Origin: Gammaproteobacteria bacterium
GTDB taxonomy: Bacteria > Pseudomonadota > Gammaproteobacteria > Enterobacterales > Alteromonadaceae
Reading direction: 5' to 3'
NCBI GenBank assembly: GCA_017302255.1
Contig: JAFLDV010000020.1
Location: 1 to 64,000, forward strand
Length of the DNA: 64,000 bases
Positions 1 to 12,179 of this stretch are shown in pieces; position 1 is the first letter of the stretch, and each line of letters starts with the position of its first letter. A program made the position numbers and the translations under genes. The notes beneath the pieces were generated by a model. That model was not told the origin of the DNA. It worked only from the letters and a program-made list of their open reading frames with translations, and did no database searches.

Positions 1-44
1 CGATGTCCGACAGCCCCATTTAATAGCTGATGGCCTGGTTTCAT
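1..44 (-). CDS. DUF1365 family protein, N-terminal fragment (runs off left edge)
   Basis: Only 14 codons and part of a fifteenth are present. The ATG overlaps the TGA of the upstream FAD gene in an ATGA arrangement, which indicates translational coupling. The visible peptide contains LLNGAVGH, which fits the start of DUF1365 proteins (small residue-L-Y/L-x-G-x-V-x-H-R-R). DUF1365 genes commonly sit directly after this type of FAD amine oxidase gene and before a cyclopropane fatty acid synthase gene. The family assignment rests on that context plus a very short match; everything beyond the edge is unseen. Confidence 0.5.
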   Translation of the reverse strand, partial: MKPGHQLLNGAVGH

Positions 45-1297
45 TCAAACGAAACTCCGAGCATGGCAGCAACATCAACCGCGCTGCGCACACCATCTTC
101 ATGAAAACCGTTATACCAATAGGCGCCACAGAAATAACTGCGGTTGACACCATTAATCAACGCGCGTTGTTGCTGCGATGCCAAGGTACTATGGTTGTAA
201 ACTGGGTGGGCATAACTGAATTTACGCAGAATTTTTTCCGGCTTAATCTGTTCGGTCGCGTTTAACGTCACGACAAATGTTGGGCCTTCGGGGATCCCTT
301 GCAAAATGTTCATGTTGTAGCTCAGCGTTGCCGATGTCTTCGAACTGTCACCAAGTAAATAGTTCCAGGCCGCCCAGGCCTTGCGCCGAACAGGCAGCAA
401 CCGCTCGTCCGTGTGCAACACCACCTCGTTCGCTTGATAAGCGATACCACCAAGCACCCGACGTTCTTCTTCTGAGGCATCCGCGAGCATCGCTAGTGCT
501 TGATCACTGTGGCAGGCAAACACAACCTGATCGTAATAGGAAACTGAACCGTCGGCCGCGGTGATAGCCACACCGTCGGCACTTCGGGTGACTTTTGCTA
601 TTGGTCTATCCAAAAGGATCCCTGCCTGGCCGCACTTTTTCAGCATGGCTTTGACATACTCACGCGAACCGCCCTTCACCACTGACCACTGTGGCCTATC
701 AGTGATATTTAGCAAGCCGTGGTTTTTACAGAATTGCAGGAAGAACCGCAGTGGAAAGTCTGGCATTGCCGTTAAGCCGGCGGACCAAATAGCAGCGCCC
801 ATCGGCAACAGATAATGATCGCGTAGTTCTTTGCCAAATTTATGCTTGGTCAAGAAAGTATCGATAGGCAAATCTAAATCAGCGTCATTAGCTTCCAGCA
901 TTGCCTTGGCAGTTTTATTAAATCGCACAATATCACGCAGCATTCGCCAAAAAGACGGCCGCAACAAATTGCGTTTTTGGGCAAACAAAGTGCTTAGGTT
1001 ATTGCCATTATATTCGAGATTAGCTTTAGGTGCTGATACGGCAAAACTCATGGTCGTGTGCTGATAATCAACCCCAAGCTCTAACAAAAACCGATTAAAT
1101 AAAGGGTAAGTCCAGTCGTTGAACACAATAAAACCGGTATCGATAGCATAGTTTTTGCCGCCGACATTCACGTCAACTGTCGCGGTATGACCACCTAAAT
1201 AGGCATTCGCTTCGAATAATGTGACATCATGCTGACGTCGTAATAAATACCAACTCATCATTCCGGCGATACCACCGCCGATCACTGCAATACGCAT
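41..1297 (-). CDS. FAD/NAD-binding amine oxidase-like protein (COG2907 type)
   Basis: A 418-residue flavoprotein of unknown substrate. The N-terminus carries a classical Rossmann dinucleotide-binding fingerprint (VIGGGIAGMMS, residues 5-15) ending in an acidic residue (LFEAN), followed by a GGH motif typical of amine oxidase/phytoene desaturase-like proteins. The C-terminus has the second FAD contact region (FCGAYWYNGFHEDGVRSA). Proteins of this type are usually encoded with DUF1365 and cyclopropane fatty acid synthase and belong to photooxidative-stress gene sets; a role in modifying membrane fatty acids is inferred, not shown. The start has a good AAGGA ribosome site. It is the fourth gene of a tightly packed operon and its stop overlaps the next start. 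Confidence 0.85.
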   Translation of the reverse strand: MRIAVIGGGIAGMMSWYLLRRQHDVTLFEANAYLGGHTATVDVNVGGKNYAIDTGFIVFNDWTYPLFNRFLLELGVDYQHTTMSFAVSAPKANLEYNGNNLSTLFAQKRNLLRPSFWRMLRDIVRFNKTAKAMLEANDADLDLPIDTFLTKHKFGKELRDHYLLPMGAAIWSAGLTAMPDFPLRFFLQFCKNHGLLNITDRPQWSVVKGGSREYVKAMLKKCGQAGILLDRPIAKVTRSADGVAITAADGSVSYYDQVVFACHSDQALAMLADASEEERRVLGGIAYQANEVVLHTDERLLPVRRKAWAAWNYLLGDSSKTSATLSYNMNILQGIPEGPTFVVTLNATEQIKPEKILRKFSYAHPVYNHSTLASQQQRALINGVNRSYFCGAYWYNGFHEDGVRSAVDVAAMLGVSFE

Positions 1298-1306
1298 GGT
1301 AATTCC

Positions 1307-1744
1307 TTATTGATCCGCCATTTTTCGTTTAATTATTGCCGTCAGCCAATTCAGCACTGGCACATGCTGATAAACCATATCCGTCATATCGTAATAATCG
1401 CGATGATGGACGATAAGCCCATCGGCATCAAATTGCAGTGCGCTACAGCCCTCAACACTAATCAATTTGCCATTACCAATCGCTTGATGGCGAAATTTCA
1501 TCGTCCAGTTTACAAAGCCAGATTGTTGCTGACCGGCAGCACTAATAACTTCGAATTGGCAGCTTTGCAGTCGTGCATAGGCGTGGGCAAAATACTCTTG
1601 CAACGCCGGTAACCCTTTGATTTCATGCACTGGGTCGACGAATACCACGTTAGGATGATACACCGCGACTAACGAATCTAAATTGTCCGCAGACAATTGA
1701 TTATAGAAATCCACAAATAGTTGGATCTTTAGTTCAGCAGTCAT
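1307..1744 (-). CDS. NTF2-like (SnoaL-type) family protein
   Basis: A 145-residue single-domain protein with the NTF2-like alpha+beta layout: an N-terminal helix (FVDFYNQLSADNLDSLVAVY), then the conserved strand HPNVVFVDPVHEIKG with its ring-closing DP/H motif. These folds make small-molecule isomerases, hydratases or non-catalytic partners; no specific reaction can be assigned. Its first codons overlap the photolyase gene by 11 bases and it is followed after nine bases by the FAD protein, so it is part of the same transcript. NTF2-like genes are common in photolyase/DUF1365/cfa clusters. Confidence 0.8.
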   Translation of the reverse strand: MTAELKIQLFVDFYNQLSADNLDSLVAVYHPNVVFVDPVHEIKGLPALQEYFAHAYARLQSCQFEVISAAGQQQSGFVNWTMKFRHQAIGNGKLISVEGCSALQFDADGLIVHHRDYYDMTDMVYQHVPVLNWLTAIIKRKMADQ

Positions 1745-3173
1745 GACCTTCTACCTTAGCAAGTTCTGGCTTGCCTTTTACTGCTTTAAACATTGCTAAT
1801 GTTAATTCTCGGGCCTTAGCATGGTCGACAACAGGCTTTGCGTAGACCAACGACATCGGCAATGGATGCGGCCAGTGAATATGTTTGCGAGGAATGGCCG
1901 TTAGTTCGGGTAAATACTGCCGAATAAAACTACCCTCACTGTCAAAACGTTCGCTTTGCGTTACTGGATTAAAAATTCTGAAATAAGGTGCGGCGTCGGT
2001 ACCAGTAGATGCAGCCCATTGCCAGCCACCATTGTTTGCAGCAAAATCACCATCAATGAGTTTGGACATAAAATAACGTTCACCCCAACGCCAATCAATT
2101 TGCAGATCTTTCACTAAGAAGCTGGCAACAATCATTCGCAAGCGGTTATGCATCCAACCGGTTTGATTCAGCTGACGCATCGCAGCATCCACGATGGGAT
2201 AACCAGTTTGACCTTGACACCAAGCATCAAACCAACGCTTGTTATTGCCCCACACTATATTTGCCGTATCCAATTGAAATGGTTGATTTTTAATGAGGTT
2301 TGGATATGCAACTAAGATGTGTTTATAAAATTCGCGCCAGATAAGCTCAGATAACCAGACCGCAGCGCCACTACCTTCCTGCCATAATTGCTGCTGAGCT
2401 TCCAACTGCAACCTAGCAACGGCTTGCTTTGGTGATATCACGCCGATGGCGAGGTATGCCGACAGGGACGATGTTCCGTCTACTGCTGGAAAATCACGTA
2501 AACGTTGGTAATCTTGAACGCGCTCTTTGCAGAACTCGCGAAGTCGCTCCAGCACCACAAGCTCGGCAACCGGATAGGCATTGGAACTACCATCAGGCAG
2601 CTCCATTGCTGGCGCAACAGAACAATCCAAGGTCGGCGCAATTTGTTTGGCGAGCTTACCAGCACAGACCACGCCACTCGCTTGTAACTTAGCCAGCCAC
2701 GTTTTCTTAAATGGGGTGAACACTTTATACGTTTCACCAGTTTTACTTAGCACTGAACCTGGCGGCATGACACACTGACTGTCATGGCTCACCACCGAAA
2801 TTCCGAGCTTATTTAGTGCAACTTCAACCTGTCGATCACGAACTTGCTCACGCAGTTCGTATTCCGTTTGCCAATACACTTGCTCAGCACCCTGCTTGGC
2901 AATATCGCAGATCACTGCAGCACAGTGTTGGTAGCTATCAATTTCAAAAGCTAACAGTGGAATACCAAGGGCAGCCAATTCATCACGCATGGCCAGCACA
3001 CGCCGGCGCAGCAAATCTTGTTTAATTGGCGCCATATCATGCAATGACCAGGTTGTTTTGGTCGCGAGATAAACCGCAACAACCGGCAGTCCTGTTTGCT
3101 GGGCTGCCGTTAATAACGAATTATCGAGCTGCCGTAAATCATTTCGCAGCCACACTAATTGAAAACTAGTCAT
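1734..3173 (-). CDS. phrB: deoxyribodipyrimidine photo-lyase
   Basis: Light-driven flavoenzyme that splits cyclobutane pyrimidine dimers. The 479 residues match the length of class I CPD photolyases. The N-terminal antenna domain begins LVWLRNDLRQLDNSLL; the C-terminal FAD domain has the family signature around WRWGERYFMSKLIDGDFAANNGGWQWAASTGTDAAPYFRIFNP, with the GTDAAPYFRIFNP block that binds FAD and DNA. The ATG overlaps the stop of the DUF523-DUF1722 gene (ATGA). The same ybgA-phr neighbourhood exists in E. coli. Expression is probably from the promoter ahead of the DUF523 gene. Confidence 0.96.
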   Translation of the reverse strand: MTSFQLVWLRNDLRQLDNSLLTAAQQTGLPVVAVYLATKTTWSLHDMAPIKQDLLRRRVLAMRDELAALGIPLLAFEIDSYQHCAAVICDIAKQGAEQVYWQTEYELREQVRDRQVEVALNKLGISVVSHDSQCVMPPGSVLSKTGETYKVFTPFKKTWLAKLQASGVVCAGKLAKQIAPTLDCSVAPAMELPDGSSNAYPVAELVVLERLREFCKERVQDYQRLRDFPAVDGTSSLSAYLAIGVISPKQAVARLQLEAQQQLWQEGSGAAVWLSELIWREFYKHILVAYPNLIKNQPFQLDTANIVWGNNKRWFDAWCQGQTGYPIVDAAMRQLNQTGWMHNRLRMIVASFLVKDLQIDWRWGERYFMSKLIDGDFAANNGGWQWAASTGTDAAPYFRIFNPVTQSERFDSEGSFIRQYLPELTAIPRKHIHWPHPLPMSLVYAKPVVDHAKARELTLAMFKAVKGKPELAKVEGHDC

Positions 3174-4111
3174 GCACGTAAGCCTAATTCAGCTGGAAAC
3201 GGGTCTAGATAACGCTGAGCGGCGACATAATCTGTCGGGTGTAGCCTTAGATGATGTTTCAATAGCGTCAGCGGAGCTAGCAGCGGAGCATGGCCGCGCC
3301 GATATAAGTGGATCAGCTCCAGTAATTCTTGTTTAGCATCGCTAGATAGCACTTTTTTAAAGAAACCCTGCAAGTGCATGAGTACATTGGCATGTTGTTT
3401 ACGGGTCGACACTTGCGATAACGCCCGCATGAAATCAGTAAGATAACGCAGTTGCAGTGCTTCAGGCGCAAACAGTTTTGCCGATGCCACCAATCTACCT
3501 AGCTCACGGTAGGCAACCGGATGATGCGCCATCACTAAAAATTTGTACTGGCTGTGAAAGGCCACCAATTTGCCGACACTAAAGCCACTACTTACCATTT
3601 GCTGCCATTGATGAAGCGCAAACACCCGCACCATAAAACTTTCACGTAAGCCTTCGTCAAACAAACGACCATCTTCTTCAATTGGCAGCCATGGATAGGC
3701 TTGTTGCAACTGCTGAGTGTATAAACCTGTGGCAATTTTTCCGAGAAAACTGCCTTTTTCATCCACCAGCCGGACTCTTTCCATGCCACAACTTGGCGAC
3801 TTCGCGCAGACAATATAACCGCTAATATCAGCAAGCGAGGCCACGGCCTTTTTTGAAAAGGCAATCATTGCTTCTGTATGATCAATTTGCGGATCTTTAT
3901 TATTTACTAAACGAATGTCACCAAGCTCAGTTTTCATTAAACGAATAGCTGGCCTTGGCACAGGCATACCAATCGCCTGCTCGGGACAAATCGGGATGTA
4001 TTGCACCAGCTTACCTAAACGGTCGACACAAAATTCAGATAGCTTATGGCCGCCGTCGTAACGTACTTTTTGGCCAAGCACACAACTGCTGATGCCAATT
4101 TTGATGGTCAT
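3170..4111 (-). CDS. DUF523-DUF1722 fusion protein (YbgA-like; TudS-like desulfidase domain)
   Basis: A 313-residue two-domain protein. Residues 1 to about 155 are DUF523, with Cys10 (SSCVLG), Cys42 (CPEQ), Cys102 and Cys108 (CAKSPSCG). This is the cysteine pattern of TudS-type [4Fe-4S] thiouracil/4-thiouridine desulfidases, including a serine (Ser105) between the last two cysteines. Residues about 190-305 are DUF1722, the YbgA domain of unknown function. It heads the photolyase operon. Desulfidase activity is an inference from the cysteine motif; the biochemical role of the fused form is not established. GGAG lies ten bases before the ATG. Confidence 0.85.
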   Translation of the reverse strand: MTIKIGISSCVLGQKVRYDGGHKLSEFCVDRLGKLVQYIPICPEQAIGMPVPRPAIRLMKTELGDIRLVNNKDPQIDHTEAMIAFSKKAVASLADISGYIVCAKSPSCGMERVRLVDEKGSFLGKIATGLYTQQLQQAYPWLPIEEDGRLFDEGLRESFMVRVFALHQWQQMVSSGFSVGKLVAFHSQYKFLVMAHHPVAYRELGRLVASAKLFAPEALQLRYLTDFMRALSQVSTRKQHANVLMHLQGFFKKVLSSDAKQELLELIHLYRRGHAPLLAPLTLLKHHLRLHPTDYVAAQRYLDPFPAELGLRA

Positions 4112-4140
4112 GTCTATTTTTCTCCGGTAGTGGATACTTC

Positions 4141-4170
4141 AGTTTACAGTCGAAGCGTCAGTTCGGATCA
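4141..4170 (-). promoter_or_regulatory. candidate ECF sigma (RpoE/ChrR-type) promoter of the photolyase operon
   Basis: On the minus strand TGATCC (4170-4165) is followed after exactly 18 bases by TAAACT (4146-4141). TGATCC with a TAAGA-like -10 is the recognised pattern of the singlet-oxygen-responsive RpoE of Rhodobacter (ECF11 group). The inferred transcription start lies about 20-25 bases before the DUF523 gene ATG, leaving room for its GGAG ribosome site. Assignment to this sigma class is an inference from one site. Confidence 0.5.
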
Positions 4171-4242
4171 ATTAAAAAGCGAAAACTTGACTTAAATCAG
4201 CGTTATAAAAAGTGGGGAAATACTGGTCGTAGGTATTTTAAA

Positions 4243-4282
4243 ATAAAAAAAGGAGTGCCTCTTCAGAAGCGCTCCTTTTTTG
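4243..4282 (-). terminator. intrinsic terminator after ihfA (bidirectional shape)
   Basis: Hairpin AAAAAGGAGTGC / GCGCTCCTTTTT with one G-T pair and a short loop, flanked by A-runs and T-runs. Read on the minus strand it ends in TTTTTTATTTT, about 40 bases after the ihfA stop. Confidence 0.85.
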
Positions 4283-4315
4283 TGGTTCACCAACGTTGCC
4301 GTTGATTAAACAGTG

Positions 4316-4612
4316 TTATTTCTTGGCAGTGCCAACTTCAACACGGCTTTTGAGCTTTTGCCCAGGCCGGAAAGTGACGACACAACGCGCAGAGATCGGA
4401 ATATCTTCGCCGGTTTTTGGATTGCGACCAGGGCGCTGATTTTTCACCCGTAGATCAAAATTACCAAAACCGGAAAGTTTTACCTGATCGCCTGCCTCCA
4501 GAGCAATCCGGACCTCTTCAAAAAATGCTTCGACGATCAATTTAGAATCGCGTTTGCTGATCCCAAATTTTGTAAATAAACGTTCTGCTAAATCGGCTTT
4601 GGTAAGCGCCAT
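4316..4612 (-). CDS. ihfA: integration host factor subunit alpha
   Basis: DNA-bending nucleoid protein that pairs with IhfB. The 98 residues begin [13 protein letters not shown], nearly the E. coli start, and contain the HU/IHF signature [21 protein letters not shown] with the RPGRNP tip of the DNA-intercalating beta arm. An upstream in-frame TTG at 4618 overlaps the pheT stop, but the ATG at 4612 has GAGG eight bases upstream and matches the family's start. It is the last gene of the pheST-ihfA operon, as in E. coli, and is followed by an intrinsic terminator. Confidence 0.97.
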
Positions 4613-4614
4613 TC

Positions 4615-7002
4615 TCAATCCCTCAACGTTGCGTTGAACTCATCTCCAAGTGCTTGAACAACGGAAGCCACCACCTGCTGGATGTCTTTATCTTCCAAAG
4701 TTCGCGTCTTGTCCTGCAATGTCAGAGCAATCGCCAACGACTTAGAGCCGTCTGCAATACCCTGTCCGGTGTACACGTCAAATAACTTTAGGTCAACTAG
4801 TTGATTTCCGCCAACTTTTCTAATAGTAGCAAGGATATCGGAAAAACGCACATCAGATTTGACAACAATTGCTAAATCACGACGATTTGCCGGGTATTTT
4901 GATACTTCTTGAGCAGAAACAATGTGTTTTTCGCCGAAAGCGGTCAATTCAAGCTCAAATAAATAAGCTTTTCCTTTAATACCTAGCTTGCGTTCTGCTT
5001 CAGGATGCAATGCACCTAACAAACCAACTGGCGCGCCATTACGCAGCACTGCGGCAGTTTGGCCCGGATGCAAGGCACTGTGCTCAGCTTTAGCAAAGCT
5101 AAATTCTGCAATGGCTGAGGTTTTGCTCAGTAAAGCTTCAACATCACCCTTAACATCATAGAAATCAACTGCGCGCTCAGCAAGTGTCCAATGTTCATTG
5201 CCATAAGAGCCGATAATAACACCGCCGATCACTGGCACTTGGCGAACACCGCCTTCTGCGTTGGCATCAGGGATGAACTTCAGACCATATTCAAACATCC
5301 GGATCCGTGTTTGTTGACGGTTTTGGTTATATTGCACTGATTGCAATAAACCTGGCCATAAATTCAAACGCATCGCCGACATTTCAGAAGAAATTGGATT
5401 TGGAAGCACTAATGCCTCAGCCTGACCAAACAGTACCTGTTGTACTTTTGGATCAACAAAGCTGTAAGTAATAGCTTCTTGATAACCGCGGTCAACTAAT
5501 AAATCGCGCAGACTATGCACCGAAATTTCAGCTTCATGGTGATCACGCATTGCCAAACTAGCCACTGGAGCCACGTTCGGAATGTTGTTGTAGCCATATA
5601 CACGGGCAACTTCTTCAATCAGATCTTCGCCAATGCTGATATCAAAGCGATAGGTTGGCACAACGACTTGCCAGCCTTCGGCAACTTCGGTCACCGCGAA
5701 TCCTAAGCGATTGAAAATTTCGCTCACGGTCGCTGTTTCGATGCTGATACCTAAAATGCGATCTAACTTCTGCCGAGTTAACGTGATAGTTGCAGGCTTT
5801 GGTAAATGCTCTGCAGACTTCGCTTCGACGACTGGACCTGCTTCACCACCGACTATAGCCAACAGCAATTCTGTTGCCCGCGCCATAGCTTTGTGTTGCA
5901 GTTCAGGGTCAACACCACGCTCGTAACGATGCGAAGCATCTGTGTGCAAACCGTATTGGCGAGCTCGACCTGCCATTTCTGTCGGGGCAAAGAATGCGCT
6001 TTCTAGGAAGATATCTCGAGAATCTGCAGTCACACCGCTGTGTAAACCACCGAAAATACCGGCCATTGCCAAGGCTTTTTCTTCATCGGCGATAACCAAA
6101 GTATCGGCATTTAATTTGACTTCAGTGGTATCAAGTAGCACTAAAGTCTCACCAGGGTTGGCGTGACGCACAACGATATCGCCAGCAATTTTGGCTAAAT
6201 CGAAGGCATGCATTGGATGTCCAAGTTCAACTAACACGTAGTTGGTGACATCAACCACCGGATCGATAGCACGAATGCCACTACGACGCAGTTTTTCTAC
6301 CATCCATAACGGTGTTTTCGCACCGACATTGATGTTGCGGATCACTCGACCTAAATAACGTGGGCAAGCTTTTGGCGCTTCTAAACGGATCGCTTTTTGT
6401 TCAGCAATCGTCGGTGTCACTTCGCTAATGGCAGGAACTGCAACATCCAGCTGATTTAATACGCCAACTTCGCGGGCTAAACCTAATAAACCTAAGCAAT
6501 CTGCACGGTTTGGGGTTAAATCCACTTCAATCATTCGATCGTCTAACTGCAAATAGCTGCGAATATCGGTACCGATAGGCGCATCTACTGGTAATTCGAT
6601 AATACCGTCAGAGCTCTCAGCCATGCCAAGTTCTGATAATGAGCACAACATGCCGTTTGATGGTTGGCCACGTAACTTCGCTGGTTTGATTTTAAAATCG
6701 CCAGGTAATACGGCACCAACAGTAGCCACAACTACTTTCAGACCTAAACGACAGTTTGCCGCACCACAAACGATATCAAGCAGCTCTGGGCCACCGATAT
6801 CAACTTTGGTCACTTGTAATTTGTCGGCTTCTGGATGACGAGCACAAGCCACCACTTCACCAACGACCACTGCGTTAAATTCACCGGCGACTGGATCAAT
6901 ACCATCCACTTCCAGACCGGCCATAGAAATTTGTTCTGCTAATTCAAGGGTCGATAACGTCGGGTTAACCCACTCGCGCAACCAGGATTCACTGAATTTC
7001 AT
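4615..7002 (-). CDS. pheT: phenylalanyl-tRNA synthetase beta subunit
   Basis: Large subunit of the alpha2beta2 enzyme that charges tRNA-Phe; 795 residues, the usual bacterial length. The start [14 protein letters not shown] is typical. An EMAP/tRNA-binding domain (residues about 40-150, [23 protein letters not shown]) comes first, then B3/B4 editing and B5 domains, and a C-terminal anticodon-binding FDX-ACB domain ([14 protein letters not shown]). It is 15 bases downstream of pheS and directly abuts ihfA. Confidence 0.98.
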
Positions 7003-11117: not shown

Positions 11118-12179
11118 TTACAATTCGATTTTGTTAGTTCGGATGGCTTCAACCAAAATTGGATATACTGCGTCCATAGTCGCTGCATCCAATGCTTTAC
11201 CTTCGTTGTCACTCAACTGGATCAACGTCCCTTGATCAGACTTGGTTAATTTAACTTGGTATTCTTGTTCCGCTAGTGGCAACTCTGGCGCGGCAGCTTC
11301 ACCCCAAATTGCATCCCAGAAACCAGATTCAGGTTTGGTGAACTTCACGAAGTAGCGGTATTCTGTACGGTTTAAATCCGTCACTTCTAATGACACGCTT
11401 TCAAACAATACTTCCAGTTGTGCCCAAGCAGTATCAATTGGTAGCTTAGTTAACAACACTGCATCCCCTGCTTCAGTGGACACTCGGGTCAATTGTACAT
11501 CCGGCAGCTTAGACTTAGCTTCACGGATCGCCGCAAGCTCAACAGTTGCAATATGGTCAATAATTCGATTTAAAAAGTGAGCTTCTTCCCGGCGCTGAGC
11601 GACAGTGGTCAGTTTCACTTCAGGATCTTGATACTTGAGGGCGGTCAAATGCACGCTCACACCGATGGTGCGGCCATGTGTTTTCGGCTCTAAAGTCACC
11701 ACAAACTGTGCTTGTTGGCTAAGTTCTTGATCTTTCCAAAACCAGAAACCAGTTTCTTCGTACTGATTTACCCAATCAGTCTTGAATTCAAGGGCTTTCT
11801 TTTCAGTAACGTCAATTTTGTTTTCTTGCATAAAACCAGCGATGTTGGTCTGCAAGTATGGTAACAACTCACCAGTATATTCAGAGCGATCAAACCAAAC
11901 GCGCACATTTTTGTCTTCTTCTTCGACACTTGAGTTAGTGGCAACAGACAAAATTTGCACTGGCGGGCGTAAATCAAGATCTTCGCCGCGCTCCCCTGCG
12001 GCAACTTGCGCAGGCAGATCGAATTGACCTGGTTTACGTGGTGCAGACAAACCTTGCGGAATTTGCAATTCAGCAACACGAGTTTCATCAACAACTTTTT
12101 CGGTTTCTTCAAAGCCCAACATCGAGCAACCAGTCAGCAGTACCGTGGCAACCAATGTGCCGGGGATCCAATATTGCAC
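11118..12179 (-). CDS. bamC: outer membrane protein assembly factor BamC
   Basis: Lipoprotein of the BAM complex that inserts beta-barrel proteins. The 353 residues begin with a lipoprotein signal ending in LLTGC (Cys18). The following unstructured segment and two helix-grip domains fit BamC, with LQIPQGLSAPRKPGQFDLP matching the N-terminal strap that contacts BamD. It lies ten bases after dapA in the conserved dapA-bamC operon and ends at a strong terminator. Confidence 0.95.
   Translation of the reverse strand: MQYWIPGTLVATVLLTGCSMLGFEETEKVVDETRVAELQIPQGLSAPRKPGQFDLPAQVAAGERGEDLDLRPPVQILSVATNSSVEEEDKNVRVWFDRSEYTGELLPYLQTNIAGFMQENKIDVTEKKALEFKTDWVNQYEETGFWFWKDQELSQQAQFVVTLEPKTHGRTIGVSVHLTALKYQDPEVKLTTVAQRREEAHFLNRIIDHIATVELAAIREAKSKLPDVQLTRVSTEAGDAVLLTKLPIDTAWAQLEVLFESVSLEVTDLNRTEYRYFVKFTKPESGFWDAIWGEAAAPELPLAEQEYQVKLTKSDQGTLIQLSDNEGKALDAATMDAVYPILVEAIRTNKIEL

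Follow-up and report, generated by a model that had tools for sequence, protein, structure and literature searches.

A conserved ECF11-like promoter site heads a photolyase operon in a Rheinheimera-like gammaproteobacterium and co-occurs with ChrR

The core regulon of the ECF11 sigma factors reportedly goes back to Dufour 2008. We confirm the promoter site described here and find good support for its interpretation, and the type of regulon to which it points is already known from Shewanella, Vibrio and Pseudomonas, including the promoter of the ybgA-phrB-cfa operon of Shewanella oneidensis. Passages of the S. oneidensis report give the form TGATCC...CGTAA for the promoters of SO_3386 (ybgA-phrB-cfa) and SO_4169 (phr) and describe mapped transcription starts for rpoE2 and pgpD (PMC4336711). 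Corresponding passages for Vibrio cholerae give TGATC-N16-18-CGTAW (PMC5241685) and report induction of cry1 by blue light and nitric oxide via RpoE-ChrR (PMC5241685, PMC11976125), and those for Pseudomonas syringae give TGATCC-N16-CGTA from ChIP-seq, together with a phrB locus that was responsive to singlet oxygen in a reporter assay (PMC5507510). In the sections of the literature that concern furan fatty acids, RSP1091 (UfaD), RSP1090 (UfaO, a DUF1365 protein) and UfaM are described as making such a lipid (PMC7380195), and the genes involved are counted among the core targets and as required for ChrR turnover (PMC6852236).

The window analyzed here is a stretch of 64,000 nucleotides, and the preliminary description of it had placed TGATCC-N18-TAAACT on the minus strand, about 30 bases before the ATG of a gene for a DUF523-DUF1722 protein. 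Direct reading of the minus strand confirmed the motif at 4170-4141, with 29 bases between it and the ATG at 4111. The -35 element, TGATCC, occupies 4165..4170 and is followed by an 18-base spacer (4147..4164), the final two bases of which (T at 4148 and G at 4147) are part of a conserved TGTAA. The -10 element, TGTAAACT, lies at 4141..4148, with its core TGTAA at 4148-4144 and TAAACT at 4146-4141. Downstream of it is a short leader (4112..4140, minus strand) which contains a ribosome-binding-like GGAG at 4125-4122 and in which, by analogy with relatives, the transcription start would be expected ~5-8 bases past the -10 element. The layout is that of an ECF11 promoter, in which the -35 element TGATCC is combined with a -10 element of TAA or TAT at N18 (equal to N16 when counted to CGTA), and it is present here as an exact TGATCC-N18-TAA ahead of a core target of such sigma factors (photolyase, cfa, rpoE-chrR). 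At the CGTA position of this promoter, T replaces C.

Motif statistics within the window were not taken as proof, since the count there is no higher than chance: TGATCC-N17..19-TAA had two matches, compared with a mean of 1.10 in shuffled sequence and at least two in 35 of 100 shuffles, and the second match (11197-11224) falls within a 353-aa ORF. That count would be in keeping with a chance match, in which case transcription of the operon would depend on a different promoter or on read-through out of ihfA, but we consider this explanation very improbable. The genes upstream of the photolyase operon are pheT and ihfA, and between ihfA and ybgA is an intrinsic terminator-like hairpin with a U-tract (4246..4281, minus strand), which sets ihfA apart from the operon and makes read-through unlikely; the 96-base stretch that contains the hairpin (4281-4246) has a folding energy of -28.6 kcal/mol (z -5.1). 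No sigma-70-like promoter was matched in 3900-4700, where shuffled sequences averaged 1.2 matches. The motif was taken as real on the basis of its conservation and its co-occurrence with ChrR, both of which speak against a chance match.

The operon, on the minus strand, is headed by a ybgA-like gene (3170..4111), the product of which combines PF04463 (DUF523/2-thiouracil desulfurase) with PF08349 (DUF1722) and has a best identity to relatives of 74%. It is followed by phrB, encoding a deoxyribodipyrimidine photolyase (1734..3173; NF007955, 587 bits against a cut-off of 506), by a gene for a small SnoaL-like protein (1307..1744) and by a gene for an FAD amine-oxidase-like protein (41..1297) that, by its domain and gene order, is likely the counterpart of UfaD (RSP1091). 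The ends of these four genes overlap or nearly touch. As the window starts at the first base of its contig (C13), the operon is cut at the FAD gene. The start of another contig (C6) encodes the final 126 residues of the FAD protein in near-identical form, and then come a DUF1365 gene and a cyclopropane-fatty-acid-synthase-like gene. The end of the FAD gene is thus seen twice, at two contig ends (41-430 of the window and 11-391 of our locus L209, from C6), with few residue changes between the copies, and this probably reflects strain variation or an assembly bubble where the operon breaks. All 22 public loci that were compared (14 entered as Rheinheimera, four from Alishewanella and four from unclassified gammaproteobacterial assemblies) have the order ybgA-phrB-SnoaL-FAD; 21 of them also have DUF1365 and 20 have cfa, the gaps coinciding with contig ends. 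The whole ybgA-to-cfa set was not seen in twelve more distant loci. It is on these relatives that we base the placement of our genome in or near Rheinheimera. In their domains and the order of their genes, the FAD oxidoreductase, the DUF1365 protein and the cfa-like methylase together match UfaD, UfaO and UfaM, and the photolyase operon may therefore also produce furan fatty acids.

Ahead of this operon, TGATCC-N18-TAA was identified in 21 of 21 genomes of the genus, our own included, its first -35 base lying 59 to 70 bases upstream of the ATG (the 22nd genus genome, G018, was left out of this count because its upstream region ends at a contig end), and the four Alishewanella loci have the site 57 bases ahead of the ATG. 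Among these 25 upstream regions, all 11 columns of the site were invariant, compared with one of the 93 other gap-free columns (Fisher p 5e-14). The TGATCC of the -35 element was the same in all 25 and the spacer, of which there were 15 distinct versions, was in every case 18 bases long. Invariance of the site in upstream regions that have otherwise diverged argues strongly against a chance match. The -10 element of the photolyase-operon promoter is TGTAA throughout the lineage (25/25), and in the same genus CGTA is found at the promoter of a second, DPRP-type photolyase and, where sites were found, at those of rpoE and folX. The presence of TGTAA in place of CGTA is mildly unusual and was the one small surprise of the comparison.

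The preliminary description had attributed control of the operon to an ECF11-type sigma factor with its anti-sigma factor ChrR, encoded outside the window. A search of the genome identified an ECF11-like pair of this kind on another contig (C26), and thus outside the window as had been claimed and unlinked to the photolyase operon. The ChrR on C26 scored 177.7 bits with TIGR02451, against a cut-off of 124.5, and is the sole ChrR over the cut-off in the genome; just upstream of chrR, and overlapping it, is an ECF sigma factor gene. Laboratory E. coli, one of the control genomes, had no match to the ChrR family. In searches against solved structures, the ChrR sequence had no match except the ChrR chains of 2z2s and 2q1z; for the sigma factor, the best match was the RpoE of the same two entries (E 5.6e-40, the next match being at 2.5e-15). 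Both entries are, we presume, Rhodobacter sphaeroides proteins. This agrees with passages of a review (PMC6852236) which also list the zinc ligands of ChrR (His6, His31, Cys35, Cys38, His141, His143, Glu147 and His177) and name Glu147 and His177, in the cupin domain, as required for the singlet-oxygen response. By alignment and hand count, all eight ligands are kept in the protein encoded on C26. Based on its nearest solved structure and its ChrR partner, we predict that the sigma factor is ECF11-type.

In 16 of 75 loci from the family and order, rpoE-chrR immediately precedes ybgA and shares its strand. Upstream of the sigma gene in our genome is TAATCC-N16-CGTAT. In the genus, the strict motif had no match upstream of the sigma gene, and with mismatches allowed the site was clear in six of 21 genus members (our own included), borderline in eight and not found in seven. 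A second TIGR02451 match in our genome, a cupin below the cut-off (C77; L002, 1378-2154), was rejected as an anti-sigma factor because there is no sigma ORF in 3.3 kb. As judged by eye, this cupin gene adjoins short-chain-dehydrogenase-like and FAD-amine-oxidase-like ORFs, and similar weak ChrR-like cupin matches recur across the order.

In order to relate the site to the presence of ChrR, 98 genomes were examined for both the ybgA and chrR genes, and the comparison was made on the 71, our own included, in which ybgA had a longer match and its upstream region was available; G018 (a genus member with no ChrR over the cut-off, and with the contig end described above) and genomes whose sole DUF523 match was short were left out. 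The operon head was taken to be the sigma gene where it was chained to ybgA and ybgA itself elsewhere, and the site was sought within 250 bp. With the consensus in a form that was loosened (TA[AT], TGATCY, N17-19) after the data had been seen, and that agrees with the published ones, TGATCY-N17..19-TA[AT] was found in 44 of the 58 genomes that had a ChrR over the cut-off and in none of the 13 that lacked one (p 3.5e-7). Kinship within a genus inflates genome counts, so the fairer comparison is by genus, in which a ChrR genus was scored as site-bearing when the site was present in half or more of its genomes: 21 of 34 genera with ChrR versus none of 11 without (p 2.8e-4). For TGATCC-N18-TA[AT] the counts were 35/58 versus 0/13 by genome and 14/34 versus 0/11 by genus (p 0.0098), and for the strict TGATCC-N18-TAA they were 23/58 versus 0/13 and 3/34 versus 0/11 (p 0.57), the genus contrast being lost in the strict form because the other genera mostly carry TAT. 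Fourteen of the 58 ChrR genomes had no site as defined, some of them having one-mismatch forms, such as CGATCC in G038. Among the 13 genomes without ChrR, some had weak cupin matches below the cut-off, and in some the absence of ChrR may be due to assembly incompleteness (G091 is 75% complete).

The genomes without ChrR also bear on whether the operon is instead switched by light through a regulator of the MerR/LitR type that works at a sigma-70 promoter, in the manner of part of the Vibrio blue-light response. Passages on V. cholerae describe the use of both MerR and ChrR (PMC5241685), and in one relative that has no ChrR over the cut-off (L062, genome G082) repeats resembling TTGTACAA were seen by eye ahead of ybgA. 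At the promoter in the window, however, no TTGTACAA-like repeat was seen, and no sigma-70-like promoter was matched in the interval described above. Moreover, a search of our genome with the PF13411 model found no LitR-type MerR gene, its one match being a 154-aa MerR whose gene is immediately followed by that of an acyl-CoA dehydrogenase, a setting which we take to resemble that of LiuR of leucine catabolism. Given that the one MerR matched adjoins an acyl-CoA dehydrogenase gene, a MerR light switch looks absent, and control of the operon by one seems to us highly unlikely. As a separate observation, TTGTACA- or TGTATA-like stretches were noted by eye ahead of ybgA in L062, L057, L120 and L124. 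Control may have moved between a MerR-type regulator and ECF11 in the course of evolution.

Further sites of the kind would be expected in the genome if an ECF11-type sigma factor reads this promoter, and the preliminary description had suggested looking for them ahead of cfa and similar genes. Such sites were found ahead of further genes of the photo-oxidative kind, most notably a second photolyase; cfa itself follows in the same operon in relatives and, in our genome, lies on C6 behind the copy of the FAD gene end. The pattern TGATCC-N18-xGTAW had eight sites in the genome and the reversed pattern five. Three of the eight do not fall within any ORF of 100 aa or longer, and at two of these three a start codon follows 59-60 nt from the first -35 base, namely at the photolyase operon and at the gene for the DPRP-type photolyase (PF04244). 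The ORF of the latter is overlapped, by four bases, by that of a DASH-like cryptochrome (L211, 494-3327, contig C15), and with both genes behind an ECF11-like site, three photolyase-family genes are in two units with the motif. Supporting the second of these sites, TGATCY-N16-CGTA was identified 54 to 94 bases ahead of the DPRP start in all 16 genus genomes that were searched (of 22 in the genus). As counter-evidence, one genome without ChrR over the cut-off (G064) has TGATCC-N16-AGTAA 168 bp ahead of a DPRP homologue.

A looser pattern gave 18 sites in our genome versus five for its reverse, and these included the following: folX-yfcH, msrA and a DCC1-like gene. At folX, TGATCN-N16-CGTA was present in our genome and in all three genus orthologues, and the site was absent in three other genera, two of them with ChrR. 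The folX-yfcH pair (L221, C26:40596) has an ECF11-like site, and the connection could lie in the supply of pterin to the antennae of photolyases. The DCC1-like gene has the site in our genome and in two of two close orthologues, with unequal spacing; among its more distant genus homologues listed, five combine CGTA with either CGATCC or AGATCC, and in three of the five the match exceeded shuffled sequence at ≤0.01. We rejected msrA as a member of the regulon, as only our genome has its site and the 15 other genus members do not.

Conservation of the site, its co-occurrence with ChrR, the sigma/ChrR pair and the site at the second photolyase all support the earlier attribution of the operon to an ECF11-type sigma factor. 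In our judgment the site very probably serves as promoter for a photo-oxidative-stress operon and is recognized by an ECF11-type sigma factor that is held by ChrR and freed by singlet oxygen or related oxidants. By analogy with the described systems, the zinc-binding anti-sigma factor ChrR would hold the sigma factor in the unstressed cell, and the sigma factor would probably be released upon damage to the cell by light and oxygen, with light, oxygen and cellular pigments giving rise to singlet oxygen or related oxidants upon which ChrR would be lost. RNA polymerase with the sigma factor encoded on C26 would then bind and read the promoter, so that ybgA-phrB-SnoaL-FAD oxidoreductase-DUF1365-cfa would be transcribed, as would the second photolyase pair (DPRP and the DASH-like cryptochrome) from another promoter and, probably, the gene of the sigma factor itself. 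Furan fatty acids, which are needed for ChrR turnover in Rhodobacter, would close a positive feedback loop.

We take the inducing signal, light with oxygen or singlet oxygen, from these relatives. An overlapping explanation keeps the same promoter and sigma factor and has organic peroxide, nitric oxide or hydrogen peroxide as the main signals; published ECF11 systems are described, in the passages cited, as also responding to hydrogen peroxide (PMC4336711), nitric oxide (PMC11976125) and t-butyl hydroperoxide (PMC5507510). We regard this as unlikely given that the best-conserved targets are photolyases and that ChrR has kept Glu147 and His177, the residues which the review passages tie to the singlet-oxygen response (PMC6852236). 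A tentative and more speculative proposal is that the genus and Alishewanella have fixed TGTAA in a way that separately tunes the threshold or strength of this promoter and that, because the UfaD/UfaO/UfaM-like genes share one unit with the photolyase, DNA repair could be coupled with the furan-fatty-acid feedback on ChrR in a non-phototroph.

The open-access literature that was searched contained no item on Rheinheimera or Alishewanella together with photolyase, and for Rheinheimera with ChrR only a heavy-metal review, by title. Our results extend the known response to light and singlet oxygen to Rheinheimera-like bacteria and Alishewanella, and they tie a promoter that was read by eye to an unlinked regulator through comparison alone. 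The contrast, in which the site accompanies ChrR in most genomes and is never seen in those that lack ChrR, is a test that is applicable to other ECF groups, and the conserved odd -10 element lends itself to a simple comparison of promoter strength.

Of the described systems, as far as the passages cited here cover them, RpoE2-ChrR of S. oneidensis resembles ours in an operon that unites the same head gene with photolyase and cfa, in the -35 element, in a second photolyase target (SO_4169) and in a sigma/ChrR pair (rpoE2-chrR, SO_1986-1985) that is separate from the operon. It differs in the -10 element, which is CGTAAT there and TGTAAA here, and the regulon there also has peroxidase and Lon-domain targets. 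SigE-ChrR of V. cholerae is likewise from a non-phototroph and has the TGATC-N16-18-CGTAW promoter and photolyase/cryptochrome targets, but a MerR light regulator is described there, whereas the one MerR found here is in another context. In P. syringae (PSPTO_1043/1042), the passages describe a phrB-to-cfa locus with counterparts of the amine oxidase (RSP_1091) and of RSP_1090, as here; the -35 element of the phrB site is AGATCC there, unlike ours, and the -10 element there stays CGTA (PMC5507510). The founding ECF11 pair, sigmaE-ChrR of R. sphaeroides, provides the nearest solved structures, and in the passages on it photolyase and cfa are direct targets and the pterin gene folE2 is an RpoE target, with folX possibly its parallel here (PMC6852236, PMC7074977). 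In that organism, a phototroph unlike ours, RSP_2143-2144 (photolyase-cfa) and RSP_1087-1091 are separate, whereas here they correspond to one operon.
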